Assembly: GCA_018003015.1 (NCBI GenBank) | Contig: JAGNEZ010000004.1 | Span: 53,430-117,429, forward strand | DNA length: 64,000 nt | DNA from: Phycisphaerae bacterium | GTDB taxonomy: Bacteria; Planctomycetota; Phycisphaerae; UBA1845; PWPN01 | Direction: 5' to 3' | Shown: in pieces, positions 43,930 to 54,487 of the stretch | Layout of the letters: each line of letters opens with the position of its first letter | Position numbering within the stretch: the stretch's first letter is position 1 | Program-made: the position numbers and the translations under genes | Notes under the pieces: model-generated | What the model was told of the DNA's origin: nothing | The model's input: only the letters and a program-made list of their open reading frames with translations | Databases searched by the model: none

Positions 43930-43980
43930 TGTCTCAGATGATACAGCCGCGAGACACCCCTGAGACGTCGCGTGTCTCAG
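43930..43980 (+). promoter_or_regulatory. GTCTCA/TGAGAC half-site array A (putative activator site)
   Basis: Four half-sites: TGTCTCA (43930), GAGACA (43951), TGAGAC (43961) and TGTCTCA (43973). The first pair is a 6-bp inverted repeat with half-sites 19 bp apart. The outer half-sites are 43 bp apart, nearly the same as in the array before the third DUF11 gene. It lies 407 bp before ATG 44338. Confidence 0.6.
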
Positions 43981-44090: not shown

Positions 44091-44337
44091 GTCGGCGGGC
44101 AGCGGATATGCTAAATGCGCAGATTGCCATAGACGCGGTCGGTGGCCGATACCGGCGCTGGCGTGCCCTTTCGAGGCCGAGTGCTCTCAACGGAAGAAGG
44201 GCTTTGACCTGGGCAGAGAAGCAACCCCCGACAGCCTCACTCGGCCAGCCGGTGGGTGGGCAATGGCTCGGCATCGCTTCCAGGGAGCTTCACGGCATTC
44301 AGTAGGGAGTCTTCATCGCGAAAGGATGGTCTTTCAG

Positions 44338-45879
44338 ATGGCTTCAGGATCCAGATTCACCGTCATCGTGCAATCCATGATTCTCGCGCTCACGATGTCC
44401 CCCCATCTCGCCAGCGCCCAGGGTACGCCTCGAAGTACCAGATCCCCCGGGACCCCACAACCAGCGGCATCGCCGACGACAGATGATCCGGTCATCACCC
44501 GGACCGAGAAGCTGTTTCCGACCGGAGATCGCGCCACCAGCGTCATTCTGCTCGAGAGGACCGCCCCGGTGGAGGTACGCCGCGGCCAGAGCTTCAACTA
44601 CGAGATCACGCTCACCAATCTGACCCGTGGTGACCTCGGCGAGGTGACCCTGACCGAACTGCTCCCCAAGAGCTTTAAGGCCGAGACGGTCAATCCGGAG
44701 CCCACGCGCAGGGAGGGCGAGGCGGCCATCTGGCGGTATGAGGGCTTTCCGGGTGGGGGAAGAACCGTGATCCGGGTGCTCGGATCGACCGACCATCCAG
44801 ACGAACTGACCTGGTGCGCAACGGTGACCTTCGGCACCAAGCTGTGTGCGACCACCAAAACCGTCGAACCGAAGCTGGTACTGACCAAGACCGCACCCGC
44901 CGAAGTCCTCATCTGCGACACGATTCCCATCAAGCTGGTGGTCACTAACACCGGTACCGGCACGGTGCAAGGCGTGAGGGTGACAGATAACCTTCCGCGG
45001 GACTGGCAGGGGAGCGATGGCAAGAATACGGTCGCCTTCGAGGCGGGGTCCCTGAGACCAGGCGAATCTCGAGAATTCTCCTTCCAGGCCAGGTCGGCAG
45101 GCACCGGTAACTTCGTCAACGAGGCCACGGCCTCGGCCCTCGGCGGCTTCACGGCTAAGGCCAGCACCGAGACCGTCGTACGCCAGCCTGTGCTGGCTGT
45201 CAGCAAGACCGGCCCCGAAGTGCGGTTCATCGGCCGTCCCGCCGAATACAAGCTCACAGTGAGCAACACGGGTGACACCGCGGCTAGGGACATCATGCTC
45301 GTCGACACCGTATCGGGGGTCGGAGAGTTCCTCAGAGCTAGCGATAACGGGCAATACGCAAACGGCAAGGTCACTTGGGCTCTGGGCACCCTCGCCCCAG
45401 GTGCGTCCAGAAGCGTTGACGTAGCCTTCGTCGGTCGCAAGGCGGGCATCATCAGAGATGACGCCGTGGCAACCGCCTACTGCGCAAGTGCCCGAGCCTC
45501 CGCGAGTACCCAGGTGCAGGGCGTGGCCGCCATCCTTCTCGAGGTCGTCGACGTCGCCGACCCGATTGAGGTCGGAGCCGCCGAAACCTACATCATCACG
45601 GTCGTCAATCAGGGAACGGCCGACGATCGCAACATTCGAGTCACCTGTACGCTGCCGCCCGAGGAGGAGTACATCTCCGCCGAGGGACCGACCACATTCA
45701 AGGCCGATGGCAAGACCGTGACGTTCGATCCCTTGCCCTCACTGGCTCCAAAGGCCAAGGCGGTCTATCGCGTGGTTGTGAAGGGCACCAAAGTCGAGGA
45801 CGCACGGTTCAAGACCCAGCTGACCAGCGATATGTTGAACACCCCCGTGGAGGAAACGGAAAGCACGCACATCTACTGA
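44338..45879 (+). CDS. DUF11-repeat surface protein 1
   Basis: The 513-residue product starts at ATG 44338 (AAAGGA upstream; ATG 44326 is possible) with a signal peptide ending near ASA-QG and a Pro/Thr/Ser-rich linker. Four DUF11-type beta-sandwich repeats follow, each with a strand like LVVTNTGTG and a TxxLP turn: about 55-170, 175-285, 290-400 and 405-505. Cys pairs in repeat 1 to 2 (WCATVTF...LCATT) may form disulfides. The C-terminus is EETESTHIY, shared with the two other DUF11 proteins here. DUF11 proteins are cell-surface or outer-layer components. It is preceded by the half-site array and a sigma-54-like promoter. Confidence 0.82.
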   Translation: MASGSRFTVIVQSMILALTMSPHLASAQGTPRSTRSPGTPQPAASPTTDDPVITRTEKLFPTGDRATSVILLERTAPVEVRRGQSFNYEITLTNLTRGDLGEVTLTELLPKSFKAETVNPEPTRREGEAAIWRYEGFPGGGRTVIRVLGSTDHPDELTWCATVTFGTKLCATTKTVEPKLVLTKTAPAEVLICDTIPIKLVVTNTGTGTVQGVRVTDNLPRDWQGSDGKNTVAFEAGSLRPGESREFSFQARSAGTGNFVNEATASALGGFTAKASTETVVRQPVLAVSKTGPEVRFIGRPAEYKLTVSNTGDTAARDIMLVDTVSGVGEFLRASDNGQYANGKVTWALGTLAPGASRSVDVAFVGRKAGIIRDDAVATAYCASARASASTQVQGVAAILLEVVDVADPIEVGAAETYIITVVNQGTADDRNIRVTCTLPPEEEYISAEGPTTFKADGKTVTFDPLPSLAPKAKAVYRVVVKGTKVEDARFKTQLTSDMLNTPVEETESTHIY

Positions 45880-46686
45880 TGACGCTAGGGCACCACGCGA
45901 TGCTCAGTGTGCCGAGCTTGCGTCCGCTCTCCGGGCCACACACTAAGACAAGATCAGCCCAATTCCCTGCAGGCACCGGCTGGCGGACCCCGAACCCCTC
46001 CCCGACCGCCTGCAAGGGATTCTTGTGAACCGCGCTCGGGGACGGTCAAGCCCATGGCCGCAACCCGACCCGACTCGCCGGCCAAGCACTTGCCACCTCT
46101 GTTATTCAGATGTGACGGAATACCGTCACGATGGGTGCTTGGAGCCTGCCCGAGGAGGCAGCTCCGCCCCCTCTGATTGCTGTAGCCTTACGGGTCAGAG
46201 CCCGTGCCTTCAACTTCGAGGCGGAGCCTCTGCCTGCAATTCCGCTGACATTCCCGCACCGCCAGCTAGCGGACAGTCTCAATTGTGCTAGAATGAGACA
46301 GTGTTAGGGCGCTTGTTGTTCGCGTCTCCCCCGCAGCAGCAAGCGGTCAGGCCGATTTACCTTGGCTTCACTTTTCGCTCTTTTCGTGAATGCCGGGCGC
46401 GCGGGGCGTGGTCGCCGGGTGGGTGCTACGACGATCGACGCTCCTGCCGTGTCCGGCCGAAACACGACGTACGACCGCAGGAGTCAAAACGCGAGGAGAT
46501 CAGCGCTGGCTTCCATGTTCGTGAAAGCCCAAGACCAAGCCGTTCCCGCCGATCCGAGTTCCCTGCGCGTGGGCCCAGGAATTCGCGATGGCGGGACACA
46601 GGTCAGATCTGGATCAGGTCGTGTTCGGGCTCGGCCTGCGGCTCTAGCTGTCGTCTCGGACGCGTTTGACTGGGGAGAAATGCCGT
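45880..46686. other. Gap between DUF11 protein 1 and the sigma-54 activator
   Basis: About 800 bp. The half-site pair at 46275-46300 is listed separately. No gene recognised. TTGGCTTCACTTTTCGC near 46362 resembles a sigma-54 element but has 11 rather than 10 bp between GG and GC. Confidence 0.4.
46275..46300 (+). promoter_or_regulatory. GTCTCA/TGAGAC inverted pair B
   Basis: GTCTCA (46276-46281) and TGAGAC (46294-46299) form a perfect inverted repeat with a 12-bp spacer, half-sites 18 bp apart, 411 bp before ATG 46687 of the sigma-54 activator. It suggests autoregulation. Confidence 0.6.
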
Positions 46687-49600
46687 ATGCAGGAGTCTGA
46701 CGCCACCGAAGCGGAGTTGCGCGGAATGCCTGCTGAAGCGGGGGCTCCGTTCCTGGAGGCTCAGGAGACCCTGCAGGCCATCCGCAGCGGCGAAGTCAAC
46801 GCCGTCGTGGTCGATAGACCGGCGGGCGGGCGGATCCTTACCCCCCAAAGCGCCCAGCTGCCGTACCGCATCCTCGTCGAGCAGATGCAGGAGGGAGCAG
46901 CCACCTGCACCGCGGACGGCATCGTCCTCTACGCCAATCGTCGCTTTGCCGAAATGCTCCGAATGCCGTCGGAGCGGGTCGTCGGCGCTTCCCTGCACTC
47001 CCTTGTTGTGGACCGTGACCGGCGTGCCCTGGAAGCGCTGCTCCTCTCTGCCCGCGGGGCGAACCGGAACACCGGCCAGGAGGAGCTCTCGCTCCAGACT
47101 TCGGATCGGATCGCCATACCGGTCCGTCTGTCGGCCAGCACCTTGACGGTCGGCGACCAACGGGTCATCTGCCTGGTCGCGAGCGATCTCACCGACCGCA
47201 AGCTGGCGGAGGAGACCGTCCGAAAGCTCCATGAAGAACTCGCTTGCGGCGTCGATGAACGGATCAGCCGTCTTCAGGCCACACTCCGCGACTTGGGTAA
47301 CGAGTTGAGGACGCACCAGCAGATCGAGCAGAACCTCCGCACAAGCGAGCAGCAGTATCGCGCGATCGCCGACTCCACATACGACTGGGCGAGCTGGATC
47401 GGCACGGACGGACGGCCGAGATGGATCAGTCCCAGCGTGGAACGGATAACCGGCTGCTCGGCCTTGGAATGCCTGGCCATGCCCGACTATCCCTTGCCGC
47501 TGGTCCATGAGGAAGACGGCGAGCAAGTGGCCCTCTACCACCGAAAGGTTCTGGAAGGCCAGACCCTGAATGACCAGCCGTTCCGCGTCCGCACCAAGGC
47601 CGGCTTGGTTCGCTGGGCGGCCATCTCCGCCCAGCCGGTCCGTGACCATCAGGGCACTTGTATGGGATGCCGATCCAGCATTCGGGACATCACCGAGCGC
47701 AAGCGGACGGAAGACGCATTGAAGCGGATGAGGGACGATCTGCGGAACATCCTCGACAGCTCACCGGATATGATCATCTCCGTTAACCTTGACCGCCGGA
47801 TCATGAACCTTAACCCGGCCGCCCAGGCCGCCTTCGGCTACTCGCCCGACGAATTGATCGGCCAGCCCGTGCAGATCCTCTACGCCGAACCCGAGGAGGC
47901 ACGCAGGGTCCAGGAGTGCATGGAGAAGACCGGCAGGTTCTGCGGCGAGATCGTCAATCGCACCAAGAACGGAAGGTGCTTCTTCGCTCATCTCGAGAGC
48001 TCGCCACTCTATGACGAACGGGGGAATGTGTGCGGGGCCATGGGTGTGTCGAGGGACATCACCGAGCACAAACGGGTCCAGGAGGCCCTTCGTGAGAGCG
48101 AGGAACGCTTGACCCTGGCCCTTCGTGGAACCCACGAAGGTGTGTGGGACTGGAATCTGGAGACCGACGCAGTCTGGTATTCCCCCCGGTACAAGGAAAT
48201 GCTGGGCTACGCCGAAGACGAGATCGAGCCGAACGTTAGGGCCTGGGAACGCCTGCTCCATCCGGACGACCGAGCCCGGGCCTTGGCGATGGTGGACGGA
48301 GTCCTGCACCATGCCCAGGAATACACCATGGAGTTCCGCCTCCGGCACAAGGACGGCCATTACATGGATATTCTCTCGCGGGGCTTCCCCGTCCGGCGAG
48401 AACCAGACGGGCCGATCATCCGCATCGTGGGGACCCATCTCGACCTCACCGAGCGCAAGCAGACCGAAGAAAGACTCCGCGCCAGCGAGCAGCGGTTTCG
48501 GCTGGTGCAGGAGATGTCCCTCGACGGCTTCACCATCCTCGATGCCGTACGGGATGAACACGGCGCGATCGTCGATTTCAGGTGGGTGTACGTGAACCCG
48601 GCGGCCGGACGCCTGCTGGGGCACACGCCCGAGGAGCTGGTCGGCCGGCGATTGCTCGACGTGCTGCCCGGTAACCGAACCAATAGCGACCTGTTTGATC
48701 GTTACGTGCGTGTGGTCGAGACCGGCCAGCCCCACGATTGCGAGCTGCAGTATGAATCAGAGAAGATCCGAGGCTGGTTCCGCAACATGGCGTTCAAGCT
48801 CAACGGCGGAATCGCCGTCCATTTCTTCGATATCACCGCTCGCAAGCGGGCCGAAAACGAGCGCGAGACCCTCTTCGCGGAGATGCGGAAAAGCCATGAG
48901 AACCTGCTTTCGATCCTCGATCAGTTGCGGCAGGGCATCTTCATGACCGATCGTGAGGGCCGCATCACCTTCGCCAACCAGGGTTGCCGGGTCTTCCTCG
49001 GCGACAGGGTGGACAACGCATACGGTCACCGGTGGTCGGAATGGTGCCCCTTCACTCCGGAGGATAAGGCGGCTCTGCAGGAAATGATCCAACGCCCTCC
49101 CGGCCAGAGAACCAAGATCGGCATCGGCGTCCGCAGAGAACCGGGCCATCGCCACTTCATGGAAGTCGACATCCTCGATGATCCCCGCGATCCCGACAGG
49201 AGACTGTTCTTCGTCTACGACCTGACCGAGGTCCGCGATCTGCGCCGTATGCTGGATGCCAAAGGCACCGTCCACGGTATGGTCGGCCAGAGCCAAGTCA
49301 TGCAGGCCGTCTACCGGCAGATCGAAGATCTCGCCGCCGTGGACTCCACCGTCCTGATCGAGGGAGAAACAGGAACGGGCAAGGAATTGGTCGCCCAAGC
49401 CATCCATGCGACAGGAATACGGTCCGACAAGGTCTTCCTGCCGGTCAACTGCGCAGGACTGACCGACTCGCTGATCGGAAGCCAGCTCTTTGGTCACAAG
49501 CGCGGGGCGTTCACCGGGGCGTTCACCGATCACCGCGGAGTGTTCGAGACCGCACACGGCGGTACGGTCTTCCTGGACGAGATCGGCGATATCCCCTTGA

Positions 49601-50202
49601 GCATGCAGACCAACCTCCTCCGGGTGCTTCAGGAGAAGGAGATCACCCGGCTGGGCGAATCCACGCCCCGCCGCGTCGATATCCGGATCATCGCCGCCAC
49701 CAACCAGGATCTGGACCAGCTCGTCCGCGAGGGGCGATTCCGCCAGGACCTCCTCTACCGCGTCCGCGTGGCCCGGGTCGTCACCCCGCCTCTCCGTCAA
49801 CGTCGCGAGGATATCCCCCTGCTCACCGAGCACTTCGTGTCCGAAACACGAAAGCGAATCAACAAGGCGGTAACCGCCATCAGCGACCAGGCCATGGACA
49901 GGTTGCTCGCCTACCATTGGCCGGGCAACGTACGTGAATTGCAGAGCGCCATCGAGTTCGCTTGCATCGCCTGCCGGGGGGTGGTCATCGGCGTCAGAGA
50001 CTTGCCCCCGGAACTCTCCACCCCCTGCGCCCCCCTGGGTCCCGCCCCCAACGCGGAGGAAAACGCCAGGGATCGCCTGCTGCGGGCGATCCAGGCCTCG
50101 AAAGGCAGTCGCACCGCTGCCGCACGCCTCCTCGGCATCAGTCGGGCTACCCTGTACCGCCGCCTGCGGGAGCTGCATCTGGATGCCGGAAGCCTCCCCT
50201 GA
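46687..50202 (+). CDS. Multi-PAS sigma-54-dependent transcriptional activator
   Basis: ATG 46687 follows GGGGAG. The 1171-residue protein has about six PAS/PAC modules (about 50-170, 215-345, 350-465, 470-590, 595-710 and 725-850; PAC ends such as SSIRDITERKRTE and THLDLTERKQTEE). The sigma-54 AAA+ domain follows: Walker A GETGTGKE (893-900), the sigma-54-contacting GAFTGA loop (940-945), Walker B VFLDEIGD, sensor I AATN, arginine-finger region FRQDLLYRV and sensor II GNVREL. The C-terminal Fis-type helix-turn-helix contains AAARLLGISRATLYRRL (about 1144-1160). There is no receiver domain, so small-molecule, redox or light sensing by PAS is inferred. It is cytosolic and would activate sigma-54 promoters from a distance. 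Confidence 0.9.
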   Translation: MQESDATEAELRGMPAEAGAPFLEAQETLQAIRSGEVNAVVVDRPAGGRILTPQSAQLPYRILVEQMQEGAATCTADGIVLYANRRFAEMLRMPSERVVGASLHSLVVDRDRRALEALLLSARGANRNTGQEELSLQTSDRIAIPVRLSASTLTVGDQRVICLVASDLTDRKLAEETVRKLHEELACGVDERISRLQATLRDLGNELRTHQQIEQNLRTSEQQYRAIADSTYDWASWIGTDGRPRWISPSVERITGCSALECLAMPDYPLPLVHEEDGEQVALYHRKVLEGQTLNDQPFRVRTKAGLVRWAAISAQPVRDHQGTCMGCRSSIRDITERKRTEDALKRMRDDLRNILDSSPDMIISVNLDRRIMNLNPAAQAAFGYSPDELIGQPVQILYAEPEEARRVQECMEKTGRFCGEIVNRTKNGRCFFAHLESSPLYDERGNVCGAMGVSRDITEHKRVQEALRESEERLTLALRGTHEGVWDWNLETDAVWYSPRYKEMLGYAEDEIEPNVRAWERLLHPDDRARALAMVDGVLHHAQEYTMEFRLRHKDGHYMDILSRGFPVRREPDGPIIRIVGTHLDLTERKQTEERLRASEQRFRLVQEMSLDGFTILDAVRDEHGAIVDFRWVYVNPAAGRLLGHTPEELVGRRLLDVLPGNRTNSDLFDRYVRVVETGQPHDCELQYESEKIRGWFRNMAFKLNGGIAVHFFDITARKRAENERETLFAEMRKSHENLLSILDQLRQGIFMTDREGRITFANQGCRVFLGDRVDNAYGHRWSEWCPFTPEDKAALQEMIQRPPGQRTKIGIGVRREPGHRHFMEVDILDDPRDPDRRLFFVYDLTEVRDLRRMLDAKGTVHGMVGQSQVMQAVYRQIEDLAAVDSTVLIEGETGTGKELVAQAIHATGIRSDKVFLPVNCAGLTDSLIGSQLFGHKRGAFTGAFTDHRGVFETAHGGTVFLDEIGDIPLSMQTNLLRVLQEKEITRLGESTPRRVDIRIIAATNQDLDQLVREGRFRQDLLYRVRVARVVTPPLRQRREDIPLLTEHFVSETRKRINKAVTAISDQAMDRLLAYHWPGNVRELQSAIEFACIACRGVVIGVRDLPPELSTPCAPLGPAPNAEENARDRLLRAIQASKGSRTAAARLLGISRATLYRRLRELHLDAGSLP

Positions 50203-50724
50203 GCCAGCGTCTTCTTCACCGCCCCTGGACAATGGCGTAGGCAATCGTTCAATTCAACCGTCTCGCGTGATACACTTGTGAGACACTTCCGAGGCGCCTT
50301 CTGTGTCAAGAAGGCCGCCATTCGACTGCGTCGCGTCTTTGCCCACCCCAACCCAAGGCGAGAAAACCGACACGAATCCTGTGCTAGGTCGCGGCTGGCA
50401 TGGAAGATGACACTGGTTTCACGCGACGGCAGAGGCCGGCGCGGCAACGCCTAGCTTGTCAGGCGACAGACCGGCGTCCTCGCCAAGACCCTGAGTGGTT
50501 CGCAGGCTCCCAGATCATCGCCACCATGGGTAGCCCGCTCCGCATCCTGCACGAGTCCGTCGGCCGGAGGGGCGGCAACCCTGACCGTAGAACCGGCAAG
50601 CCCGTCGCGCCCCTCGCCCCCCATAGCCAGACGCCGCGTGCGTCGCGGGGGGATGAGGGCACAGGCAACCGGGCCTGCGTTCGCCCTGGTTCTTCTGTCG
50701 AGCACAAAGCCGGACAGAAATCGC
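50203..50724. other. Gap between the two activator genes
   Basis: About 520 bp holding the half-site pair listed separately. A weak GG-N10-GA element (TGGCATGGAAGATGA near 50396) is possible. No gene seen. Confidence 0.4.
50260..50284 (+). promoter_or_regulatory. GTCTCA/TGAGAC inverted pair C
   Basis: GTCTCG (50260-50265) and TGAGAC (50279-50284), half-sites 19 bp apart, one mismatch. It lies 465 bp before ATG 50725 of the inactive activator paralogue. Confidence 0.55.
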
Positions 50725-51774
50725 ATGGTCACACTGGAAGAAAACGCCGTTCGCCCCCTCGGCGGCTCGAATCCTGGCTTTGCAGGTGTGCCCGAGACAG
50801 GTGAACTCGATGACGTGCTCCGTGGCCTGCCCGGCTTGCAGACAGTGCTCAAGACGATCCGGGATTTGGCCGGGCTCGAGGTGCCGGTTCTCATCCAGGG
50901 AGAGCCCGGAGTGGGGGTCGATTTCGTTGCCCGCGAGATACACAACCTCAGCCAACGGCGCCTTCGCCCATTCATCGTTGTCTCATGTGCAGGCGTCTCG
51001 GAATCCAACTTGGCAAATCAGCTCTGGGGGTACGACAAAGGGGCCTTCCCCGGGGCGACCGCGGACCATCCGGGTCTTTTCGAGTTGGCTGACGGGGGCA
51101 CCGTCTCCTTCGAAGAAGTCCGCGATATCCCCTTCGGCCTGCAGATTCAGTTGGCCCGCATGATGAGAACGTGTGAGACTGCCCGGATCGCCCAGTCCCA
51201 GTCTCGCCGAGTGAACGTCCGGCTCGTTTTTGGCACGAAGTTCAACCTGGTCGAGGAGACCGCCAGCGGGCGGGTCGACGCAGACTTGCTCTATCGGATA
51301 CGGGTCGCCCAGATTCAGTTGCCTCCGCTACGCGAGCGGCTCGGCGACGTCGCTTCGCTCGCGGCGTTCTGCCTCCATCAGAGCCGCCTCTTGCCCGAAA
51401 AGCCCCTGCCCAACTTGAGCGACGAAGCCATGGGCGTCCTTTTACGCTACTCCTGGCCCGGCAACATGACGGAACTGCAGAGCGCCATCCAGTTCGCGGC
51501 CCTCCGGTGCAAGGGATCCACGATCACGGCCGCAGACCTCCCCCCGGAGATGCGCGTTACCCGCGGTACGCCGCGTCACCTCAGCCCCGCAAAGCAGGAG
51601 AAAGAACGCTTCCGAGCGGCCATGGGGGCGGCCAAGGGTAACCGAACACTGGCGGCCAGACTGCTCGGAATCAGCCGGGCGACGCTTTACCGTCGCCTGA
51701 AGGAACTCGGGCTCGCGACGCGCGGGCAGGCAGCCAGGGGCGTCTCATGCCGTACACATATGAGACCTCCGTAA
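50725..51774 (+). CDS. Sigma-54-activator-like protein with inactive AAA+ domain
   Basis: From ATG 50725 the product is 349 residues: a degenerate AAA+ domain then a Fis-type helix-turn-helix (LAARLLGISRATLYRRLKEL), nearly identical to that of the upstream activator. There is no sensory domain. Against the upstream paralogue the key residues are changed: Walker A GEPGVGVD (59-66) has Val65 where the Lys should be; GAFTGA is GAFPGA (106-111); Walker B is VSFEEV; sensor I AATN is FGTK; the arginine-finger segment is GRVDADLLYRI; sensor II GNVREL is GNMTEL. The reading frame is intact and domain boundaries are preserved, so the protein looks maintained, not decaying. A DNA-binding antagonist or co-regulator at the same sites is inferred. 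The start is uncertain because upstream ribosome sites are weak. Confidence 0.8.
   Translation: MVTLEENAVRPLGGSNPGFAGVPETGELDDVLRGLPGLQTVLKTIRDLAGLEVPVLIQGEPGVGVDFVAREIHNLSQRRLRPFIVVSCAGVSESNLANQLWGYDKGAFPGATADHPGLFELADGGTVSFEEVRDIPFGLQIQLARMMRTCETARIAQSQSRRVNVRLVFGTKFNLVEETASGRVDADLLYRIRVAQIQLPPLRERLGDVASLAAFCLHQSRLLPEKPLPNLSDEAMGVLLRYSWPGNMTELQSAIQFAALRCKGSTITAADLPPEMRVTRGTPRHLSPAKQEKERFRAAMGAAKGNRTLAARLLGISRATLYRRLKELGLATRGQAARGVSCRTHMRPP
51742..51766 (+). promoter_or_regulatory. GTCTCA/TGAGAC inverted pair D
   Basis: GTCTCA (51742-51747) and TGAGAC (51761-51766), a perfect inverted repeat with half-sites 19 bp apart. It lies inside the last codons of the inactive activator gene and 463 bp before ATG 52205 of the second DUF11 gene. 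Confidence 0.6.
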
Positions 51775-52204
51775 GGTCTCTCGGGCTTTGCGCCGGCGGA
51801 TGGGCCGCATTCTCGGTTGCTGCAGGTCCCGGTGTCCGTGATGAACGCCAAAAAACCTGGGTTGAAGGACTTATGTGTCCGATAGTAGAATTGGCACGGT
51901 ATTTGATATGAGGGAGAGTCATGAAGCGACAGCAAACAGGATGTGTTTGAAAATGAGCCAAATGCGCTTGACTCTTGCCCGCATGTCGCTTAGGTTGATC
52001 GCCGTTCAGCGATGACGCCCGGCGGGCGGCCGGCGCCGTCTGCTGTGGCACTTCGCACATGATGGCTGTTGCGCGTGGAAGATGTCAGGACAGGAAAACC
52101 TCAGAAACCTCGGCTCGCTGTTCTGGACGAGAATCGAGGATGCGCCTAACGTAGAGAGACAGGGACTCTTTCTAGTGGTTTAGTTGGTCATAGGAGTATA
52201 CCTC
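51775..52204. other. Regulatory gap upstream of the second DUF11 gene
   Basis: About 430 bp, relatively AT-rich in the middle. It contains the sigma-54-like promoter listed separately and no gene. Confidence 0.5.
51892..51908 (+). promoter_or_regulatory. Sigma-54-like promoter of the second DUF11 gene
   Basis: TTGGCACGGTATTTGATA has an ideal -24 element TTGGCACG with GG at 51893-51894, a 10-bp spacer and GA at 51905-51906, where GC is the consensus. It is the best such match in the window, 130 bp downstream of inverted pair D. Confidence 0.55.
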
Positions 52205-54487
52205 ATGAAGGTCAGACACGCATGGAAAGTGGTGTTCGGAATAGGCCTATCTGTTGCCGTAGGGATCGGCCTGGGGTGTCGGGAGTCGATGCCCCATTCG
52301 CTCACCTGGCCGGTCACGGGAGATACCGTGCCGACGCATCCCAAACCGCCGGAAGGTGGGTATCACAAGGACTGGGATCCGTATGCGGCCACCATTGAGC
52401 TCACGCCGGCTACCGACGTGAACCCGGTCAGAACCCAGCACGTTCTTGTCGCGACGGTGAAGGACAAGGAAGGCAAACCGCTCCCGAATCGGCGCGTCGA
52501 GTGGATCATCTCCAACGGCAGCGTCGGCGACATCGTCGAAGTCGACGAGAGCGGGTTCCGCGCCAGCCGCGGCTACAAGGTCGACAACCACTTCGCCGTC
52601 TCGCATACCAACAACTTCGCCCATGTCCTGGATCGCGGCAATAACGACGCGTCCGATGACATCCACCTGACGCCCGGTCAGACGTGGTGCGTGGTCACCT
52701 CGCCCGTGGAGGGCGACACCCACGTCGTGGCCTATGCGCCGGGAATCTATGCCTGGGACAAGCACAAAGTCTTCGCCGTCAAGCATTGGTACGACGTCAA
52801 GTGGGAGTGGCCACCGGCGGCAACCAACCCAACCGGTACCACCCATCAGTTCGTGACCAAGGTCATGAAGTACTCAGATGATTCGCCGCTGCCTGGCTAC
52901 GTGGTCAACTACAAGATCACCGGCGGGCCGGCAGGTACGTTTGATCCGGGTGGCGGCACCACGGCGTCGGTCAGGACCGACGAGCAGGGCATCGCCGCCG
53001 TCACCCTCAAGCAGGTCAAGCCTGAGGCGGGAACCAACGACGTCGCAATCGAGATCATCCGGCCAGATAACCTCCAGTGCTGCAAGCCGGCTGTCCTGAT
53101 CGCCACCGGGGCTACCCAGAAGATCTGGGTGGCGCCGCAGATCGGCATCAAGAAGTCCGCGCCGGCAACCGCAATGGTCAACGATCAGTTCAGGTATGAC
53201 ATCGTCGTGTCCAGCCTGTCCCAGGTGCCCGCGAACGAGGTCGTCGTGACCGACACCATTCCGGACGGCATCGACTACGTCTCCAGTCAGCCGGAAGCCC
53301 GCGTCAGCGGTAAGACGCTGACTTGGTCTCTCGGCACGATGGCCGCCGGCGCACAGGCCACCATCGCTGTCGAAGTCAAGGCCACCAGAACCGGTAAGTT
53401 CACCAACTGTGCCGAAGTGACCGCCGCTCAGGGACTGTCAGCCCGCGACTGCGCGGACACCGTCGTGACCGCCCCGGCGCTCGCTCTTGAGAAGCAGTGC
53501 CCAGGAGAAGTGGTGCTCTGCGAGATCATCCCCTACACCTTCGTCGTGACCAACAAGGGTGATGGCCCGGCCACGAACGTGAAGGTCAGCGATACCCTTC
53601 CCGATGGGCTGACCACCGAGGATGGCAAGACCTCCATTGTGATGGACGTTGGCGATCTGCCTGCCGGACAGGCCAAGAAGTTCACCGTCAACGTCAAGGC
53701 CAATAAGCCTGGCCAGTACAACAACAAGGCTACGGCGACCGCCGACAAGGGACTGTCCGCCGAGGCCGGCTGCTCGACCGTGGTCCGCCAGCCAACCCTG
53801 GTCGTGACCAAGACCGGTCCGGGCGAACGGTACGTCGGACGTCCGGTGCCCTTCGAGATCACCGTGACCAACAACGGCGATGCAGTCGCTCGCGACACCG
53901 TCCTGACCGACCCGCTGCCCGCTGGCACCGAGTTCATCGAAGCCAGCGACGGCGGCCAGTTCTCCGGCGGAAAGGTAACCTGGAACCTCGGTACCCTCGA
54001 GCCCAACGCCTCGAAGAAGGTCACCGTCACCCTCAGGGCAACCACACGCGGCGAGATCAAGAACACCGCGACCGCCCAGGCCTTCTGTGCCCAGGCCGGG
54101 GCTGATGCGGCGCTTCCTATCAAGGGCGTCCCGGCGATCCTCCTCGAGGTAGTCGATGACCCAGACCCAATCGAGGTGGGCGGCAACACAACCTACACCA
54201 TCGAGGTCACCAACCAAGGCTCCGCCGATGACACCAACATCGTCGTCAAGTGCACCTTGCCCGACGAAGAGGAGTTCGTATCCGGCGATGGGGCCACCAA
54301 GGGAACCGCTGAGGGTAAGGTCGTGACCTTCGCTCCAGTGTCTTTGCTGGCCCCCAAGGCCAAGGTCACCTTCCGCGTCGTCGTCAAGGGCGTAAAGGAA
54401 GGCGACGTGCGGTTCAAGACGACCATGACCAGCGATAACCTGAAGATCGCCCCGGTTGAGGAAACCGAGAGCACGCATATCTACTGA
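52205..54487 (+). CDS. DUF11-repeat surface protein 2 with N-terminal Ig-like domains
   Basis: ATG 52205 follows AGGAG. The 760-residue product has a signal peptide with GLGC near residue 25, fitting lipidation. Residues about 45-310 form Ig-like modules of invasin/Big type (VLVATVKDKEGKPLPNRRVEW, then VTLKQVKPEAGTNDVAIEI). Four DUF11 repeats follow (from about 318, 430, 535 and 645), with AEVT..GLSARDC and VLCEIIPYTFVVTN marks. The C-terminus is EETESTHIY, as in the other two DUF11 proteins. It is the largest of the set and is followed by a strong terminator. A surface-anchored role is inferred. Confidence 0.83.
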   Translation: MKVRHAWKVVFGIGLSVAVGIGLGCRESMPHSLTWPVTGDTVPTHPKPPEGGYHKDWDPYAATIELTPATDVNPVRTQHVLVATVKDKEGKPLPNRRVEWIISNGSVGDIVEVDESGFRASRGYKVDNHFAVSHTNNFAHVLDRGNNDASDDIHLTPGQTWCVVTSPVEGDTHVVAYAPGIYAWDKHKVFAVKHWYDVKWEWPPAATNPTGTTHQFVTKVMKYSDDSPLPGYVVNYKITGGPAGTFDPGGGTTASVRTDEQGIAAVTLKQVKPEAGTNDVAIEIIRPDNLQCCKPAVLIATGATQKIWVAPQIGIKKSAPATAMVNDQFRYDIVVSSLSQVPANEVVVTDTIPDGIDYVSSQPEARVSGKTLTWSLGTMAAGAQATIAVEVKATRTGKFTNCAEVTAAQGLSARDCADTVVTAPALALEKQCPGEVVLCEIIPYTFVVTNKGDGPATNVKVSDTLPDGLTTEDGKTSIVMDVGDLPAGQAKKFTVNVKANKPGQYNNKATATADKGLSAEAGCSTVVRQPTLVVTKTGPGERYVGRPVPFEITVTNNGDAVARDTVLTDPLPAGTEFIEASDGGQFSGGKVTWNLGTLEPNASKKVTVTLRATTRGEIKNTATAQAFCAQAGADAALPIKGVPAILLEVVDDPDPIEVGGNTTYTIEVTNQGSADDTNIVVKCTLPDEEEFVSGDGATKGTAEGKVVTFAPVSLLAPKAKVTFRVVVKGVKEGDVRFKTTMTSDNLKIAPVEETESTHIY

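Follow-up and report, generated by a model that had tools for sequence, protein, structure and literature searches.

The window, 64,000 nucleotides at positions 53,430-117,429 of a contig (JAGNEZ010000004.1) from a Planctomycetota (Phycisphaerae) MAG, contains a cluster in which two tandem sigma-54 activator (bEBP) genes lie among three genes for DUF11 repeat proteins:

44326..45879, + strand: DUF11 repeat protein gene 1 (likely start)
46666..50202, + strand: active tandem paralogue with several PAS domains, an intact AAA+ domain with GAFTGA and a Fis-type HTH (alternative start ATG 46687)
50725..51774, + strand: dead sigma-54 activator paralogue of 349 aa, with losses in the AAA+ ATPase site and in GAFTGA and with the Fis HTH kept
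52205..54487, + strand: DUF11 repeat protein gene 2, conserved 3' of the dead gene in loci L053 and L054
57865..59361, + strand: DUF11 repeat protein gene 3 (likely start)

The active paralogue (1178 aa) ends about 520 bp 5' of the dead gene, and the two proteins are 45% identical over 295 aa; the genome has a single sigma-54 gene. The three DUF11 proteins are themselves paralogous and end in the same C-terminal VEETESTHIY, which is also found in L054 as THVY, and ESTHVYK or ESTRFYE variants occur in L090 and L089, adjoining active orthologues.

The dead gene runs from ATG 50725 to TAA 51774 with no internal stop, and here the coordinates and the intact frame of the initial annotation are right. 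Its product matches Pfam Sigma54_activat (144.7 bits, cut-off 20.2), AAA_lid_14 and HTH_8 (46.6 bits, cut-off 22, indicating that a Fis-type DNA-binding domain is present) and is without a sensor domain. When the protein and its orthologues were aligned with 41 active relatives, 65 columns were at least 90% conserved, and among these the dead copies carry K65V, T109P (Ala in the more distant orthologue, from genome G002), D130E, F184V, R185 replaced by Asp, Tyr or Ala, and R249T. Further, at the switch Asn of the 'NCA' motif (PspF N64) each of the three dead orthologues has Ser87, and the sensor I Asn has become Lys, Glu or Gln across them. The counterpart of GAFTGA is GAFPGA within the genus and GAFADT in G002, so that the sigma-54-engaging loop of a working bEBP is lost; the bEBP ATPase site is equally lost, lacking the Walker A Lys, the Walker B Asp, the arginine finger and the sensor II Arg. 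The main positions are:

50917..50919, + strand: V65 codon at the Walker A Lys position, Val in three of three orthologues
51049..51051, + strand: P109 codon at the GAFTGA Thr position, Pro in the genus and Ala in G002
51277..51279, + strand: D185 codon at the arginine-finger position, Asp, Tyr and Ala in the three orthologues (the arginine finger is R162 in PspF; PMC3419264)
51469..51471, + strand: T249 codon at the sensor II Arg position, Thr in three of three orthologues

Because they are common to the orthologues, these losses go far beyond chance. They do not extend to every key AAA+ residue, as had been claimed at first: most of the ATPase site and the GAFTGA Thr are altered, but the protein retains the P-loop glycines, the catalytic Walker B Glu131, R145, D187 and R191 (Lys in G002). 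By AlphaFold2 the AAA+ core is predicted to be intact (mean pLDDT 82.4, mostly >90 in the core), the nearest structure being NtrC1 (Z 30.2, 253 aligned residues, rmsd 1.9). In PspF, the Walker A substitution K42A impairs ATP binding, and changes at the arginine finger R162, at D164 or at R168 cut ATPase activity while rendering hexamers constitutive (PMC3419264). The K42 and R162/R168 variants are laboratory equivalents of the losses seen here, with the difference that they are engineered single changes and not a natural paralogue (PMC3419264). As judged from its residues, the dead protein has very probably lost both ATP binding and hydrolysis.

The gene is nevertheless maintained, not decaying. 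Intact orthologues that lack the Walker Lys and keep the Fis helix, the kind of relative that the initial annotation had proposed to look for, exist in a MAG of the same genus (G001, RA.bin145; 90% identity) and in one of another genus of the family (G002, PDA_C_MAG.97; 58% identity), both with the same losses. In these genomes and in that of the window (G000), the dead gene has the active tandem paralogue on one side and a DUF11 repeat-protein gene on the other, all three genomes being MAGs and the active gene of G002 being cut by a contig end. The proposed dN/dS check gave purifying selection: for the G000/G001 pair, codon maximum likelihood yields an omega of 0.189 and rejects omega = 1 (LRT p=1.7e-13), the value for the AAA+/HTH part of the active twin in the same pair being 0.032. 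Dead copies form a monophyletic clade (100/100) with a stem of 0.88 and later branches of 0.34-0.43, a long stem followed by shorter branches that suggests a burst of change and then constraint; the tree does not place this clade relative to the active clade, so that it may or may not be sister to the family's own active genes. Slow decay of a pseudogene might be read from the many conserved residues that are gone and from an omega of 0.19 that exceeds the 0.03 of the twin; against this stand the intact frame in three genomes and two genera, an omega far below one at the p-value just given, and a promoter and array before the dead gene (below) that are shared and conserved, so that we reject it as barely credible. 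Beyond G000-G002, searches of 114 genomes from the order and 392 from the phylum, and a GTDB contig scan, gave no further dead orthologue; the other strong matches whose motifs were inspected, including three from outside the order, keep the Walker Lys and GAFTGA. Reduced silent change in the HTH codons had hinted at a hidden site there, an idea that was dropped (longest-run test p=0.44). Two other degenerate bEBPs occur in the same genome. One (L016, G000:C35:16754-17254, minus strand) keeps the Walker A Lys, has ELFGEGHAPPGTIG in place of the GAFTGA region, a Walker B of VEGV, a sensor II of GNAQEL and a Fis HTH; the other (L017/L018, G000:C53:37034-37471) has no GAFTGA loop and a Walker B of LQNV and retains the R-hand and sensor II.

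The part of the protein that would contact DNA is the following:

51589..51714, + strand: Fis-type HTH, residues 289-330, with the recognition segment SRATLYRRL the same as in the active paralogue

The initial annotation had noted that the LLGISRATLYRRL helix is identical to that of the active paralogue, and this is borne out; among the bEBPs of this genome whose sequences were compared, only these two carry the SRATLYRRL/LLGISRATLYRRL helix. Few parts of the dead clade are as well conserved as the HTH, and in each genome its recognition helix equals that of the active twin. Identity of the helix alone is no proof of equal specificity, since SRATLYRRL-type helices were inherited from a common ancestor. 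Candidate shared sites are found in the cluster itself: phased arrays of GTCTC/GAGAC half-sites, set at intervals of about one turn of the helix or a multiple thereof, lie 5' of each of its two regulator genes and three DUF11 genes:

43931..43978, + strand: putative operator array A, GTCTC-N15-GAGAC-N6-GAGAC-N7-GTCTC, 5' of DUF11 gene 1; conserved in L053 at 3237
46276..46328, + strand: putative operator array C, GTCTC-N14-GAGAC...GTCTC, 5' of the active bEBP; conserved in L053 at 5557
50260..50307, + strand: putative operator array B, of the same form as array A, 5' of the dead bEBP; L053 at 9538, L054 at 965
51742..51780, + strand: putative operator array E, at the dead gene's 3' end and 5' of DUF11 gene 2; L054 array at 2407
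57450..57498, + strand: putative operator array D, GTCTCATGTGAGAC-N17-GAGAC-N8-GTCTC, 5' of DUF11 gene 3; L053 at 16745, L054 at 7204

Searched as GTCTC-N14/15-GAGAC-N6-GAGRC-N6/8-GTSTC and GTCTCRYRYGAGAC-N16/18-GAGAC, both forms are confined to this cluster within G000, G001 and G002, with zero matches for the reversed-pattern controls and none in ten other relatives. Allowing up to three mismatches in six genomes adds one more array inside the cluster and two isolated three-mismatch matches in other genomes, and no array appears elsewhere in G000-G002. Most likely the arrays are binding sites of the active twin. At two loci of another family that have no dead gene, GACA-type repeats are seen: in G067 four sites precede one promoter, a number that 1.7% of windows reach, and in G031 the repeats are weaker; as counterparts of the arrays they are suggestive only. 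With both regulators in one cluster, and the same predicted operator arrays before the regulator and DUF11 genes, part of the interpretation given in the initial annotation gains support.

The dead protein could instead bind the active protein and no longer DNA, or other DNA, and so titrate its twin. The nearest known parallel is in Desulfovibrio vulgaris Hildenborough, where DVU2960, a GAFPGA bEBP, is encoded in a sigma-54 operon driven by the active bEBP DVU2956, with co-localisation conserved in relatives, and gave no shift on the operator of its neighbour in EMSA; the Thr to Pro change in GAFTGA also inactivates NifA (PMC4641369). The likeness, a GAFPGA bEBP beside an active one, makes that result a warning for the DNA-binding step proposed here. 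The two cases differ in that a GAFTGA change alone is reported for DVU2960 in the text considered, whereas the present protein has lost most of its ATPase site and has a helix identical to that of the twin. The conservation of the HTH, and a recognition helix that follows the twin's in each genome, argue against pure titration, which we regard as very unlikely.

Downstream of three of the arrays, sigma-54-like promoter motifs can be recognised:

50396..50410, + strand: sigma-54-like promoter of the dead bEBP gene, TGGCATG-N5-TGA; L053 at 9674, L054 at 1098
51892..51906, + strand: sigma-54-like promoter of DUF11 gene 2, TGGCACG-N5-TGA; L053 at 11168, L054 at 2547
57566..57580, + strand: sigma-54-like promoter of DUF11 gene 3, TGGCACG-N5-TGA; L053 at 16861

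All three lie on the coding strand, 68-112 bp past the last half-site of an array. TGGCAYG-N5-TGA occurs three times in the window against 0.39 expected, a count that none of 100 shuffles reaches and that is partly circular given that the motif was defined from the sites at 51892 and 57566. Better checks are the site of the dead gene at 50396 and two sites in G002, a genome that was not used for the definition: seven matches occur in G002 and two of these fall on the 7.4-kb contig of the cluster (0.011 expected, P 6e-5), one of the two having been visible in the alignment before the motif was set. At one mismatch the motif is not enriched in the window (13 vs 10.3), nor is the canonical TGGCACG-N4-TTGCW at two mismatches (9 vs 10.3 by chance), and no promoter motif was recognised downstream of arrays A (DUF11 gene 1) and C (active bEBP). 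The motif pairs a -24 element of the sigma-54 kind with a weak -12; since the latter reads TGA and not TTGC, dependence on sigma-54 is less than certain. Across the whole genomes of G000, G001 and G002 it outnumbers its reversed control about twofold (28/13, 37/15 and 7/4), so that these genera may make wider use of a GG/GA sigma-54 promoter. Separately, the leader (51860-52205) that separates DUF11 gene 2 from the dead gene is conserved between G000 and G001 above the other intergenic stretches seen and may hold further regulatory elements. With arrays 5' of sigma-54-like promoters, the active paralogue probably switches on the dead gene together with the DUF11 genes.

These same promoters bear on whether the dead protein serves sigma-54 at all. 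In its defective GAFTGA it resembles the sigma-54-uncoupled bEBPs of the TyrR/VpsR type: about 110 GAFTGA-defective homologues are known, in which Thr/Ser to Pro is preferred (PMC3162934), and the NtrC proteins of Caulobacter and Rhodobacter as well as VpsR are degenerate bEBPs (PMC10274813). It could, like them, be a DNA-binding regulator that represses or activates sigma-70 promoters, at the same or other sites and without interaction with its twin. TyrR, DhaR and HupR (PMC3162934) and Caulobacter NtrC (PMC10274813) regulate sigma-70 promoters without GAFTGA, these proteins and VpsR keep DNA binding (PMC3162934, PMC10274813), and VpsR is reportedly independent of ATP (PMC10274813); arrays A and C, lacking a recognisable sigma-54 promoter downstream, would fit such a role. 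However, the arrays of the dead gene and of DUF11 genes 2 and 3 stand at a bEBP-like distance from sigma-54-like motifs, and no sensor domain is left in the protein. TyrR, DhaR, HupR, VpsR and Caulobacter NtrC also differ in acting alone as sigma-70 regulators, with no tandem active twin and shared operators reported, and in Caulobacter NtrC the Walker A and B residues are still required (PMC10274813). We consider this role rather improbable.

A partner that helps is also conceivable: by anchoring the active bEBP on the arrays, by seeding it there, or as a structural subunit of a hetero-hexamer in which only some of the sites have to be active, the dead protein would promote activation. Synteny, recognition helix and arrays fit this as well as they fit a brake, and the four phased half-sites of an array could seat several dimers. 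Moreover, there are precedents for bEBP paralogues that interact and activate together. VnfA1 and VnfA3 of Azotobacter vinelandii have similar recognition helices, bind the same promoters, interact, and one activates the operon of the other; they differ from the present pair in being two co-activating activators, ATPase loss not being described in the portion of the study considered (PMC9542535). In Pseudomonas syringae the bEBP paralogues HrpR and HrpS associate with one another, both being activators, with no dead subunit (PMC4145663). Evidence against a helper comes from active-orthologue loci in another family (G067, G031), where DUF11 genes and near-canonical sigma-54-like sites, for example TGGCATGTGTCTTGCT, are found alongside and the dead copy is absent: the activator in general does not need the dead protein. 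To our knowledge, the known interacting partners retain their ATPase motifs, which also counts against a helper, and we hold this reading to be unlikely.

A copy that is kept, whose DNA-binding part is intact and which apparently shares control sites with its neighbour genes is unlikely to be junk; it probably acts as a built-in regulator of the active protein. In the sequence of events that we favour, the dead gene would have arisen when a locus-specific activator with PAS sensing was duplicated in its AAA+ and Fis parts; it would then have lost sensor domains, ATPase site and sigma-54 contact and would since have been held by purifying selection. The active twin would bind the GTCTC/GAGAC arrays and, with sigma-54, turn on the DUF11 genes and the dead gene, whose product, with the same recognition helix, would feed back on the same sites, either by occupying the arrays or by joining the hexamer of its twin. 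A dead subunit in that hexamer would neither hydrolyse ATP nor offer an arginine finger to its neighbour, and the expected net effect is a brake. By analogy with the constitutive hexamers of the PspF R162, D164 and R168 variants, nucleotide-independent assembly of the dead protein would be plausible. We infer that the arrays are the sites of these proteins, that the dead protein binds them, that mixed rings form and that the sign is negative. As a whole, this account of a retained pseudo-ATPase feedback regulator with shared enhancers, possibly shared hexamers and most likely a braking action seems to us evenly balanced between right and wrong: the brake is rated at about one half because a helper or a sigma-70 role would leave similar traces in the sequence. 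More tentatively, at somewhat below even chances, the dead protein may be a dedicated pseudo-ATPase bEBP that is switched on by its twin to cap the same sigma-54 enhancers, through competition for the arrays or poisoning of the hexamer, a natural negative feedback that uses an inactivated copy of the activator.

Enzymatically dead relatives of sigma-54 activators acting as antagonists were initially called a little-described mode, which overstates the case given TyrR, VpsR, Caulobacter NtrC and the interacting pairs HrpR/HrpS and VnfA1/VnfA3. Degenerate bEBPs being known, what is new here is a conserved loss of the ATPase site inside a predicted shared regulon, together with the half-site arrays; a partial survey of the literature found no described case that combines an ATPase site mostly lost, tandem position, identical helix and an array shared 5' of both genes. 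Dead subunits are familiar from other AAA+ rings, but natural degenerate sigma-54 activators are usually discussed as stand-alone sigma-70 regulators. If our reading is true, a conserved dead paralogue within the regulon of its own twin would reveal a means of tuning an ATP-driven promoter switch, and the locus would offer a small, mapped setting for the question of mixed activator rings.
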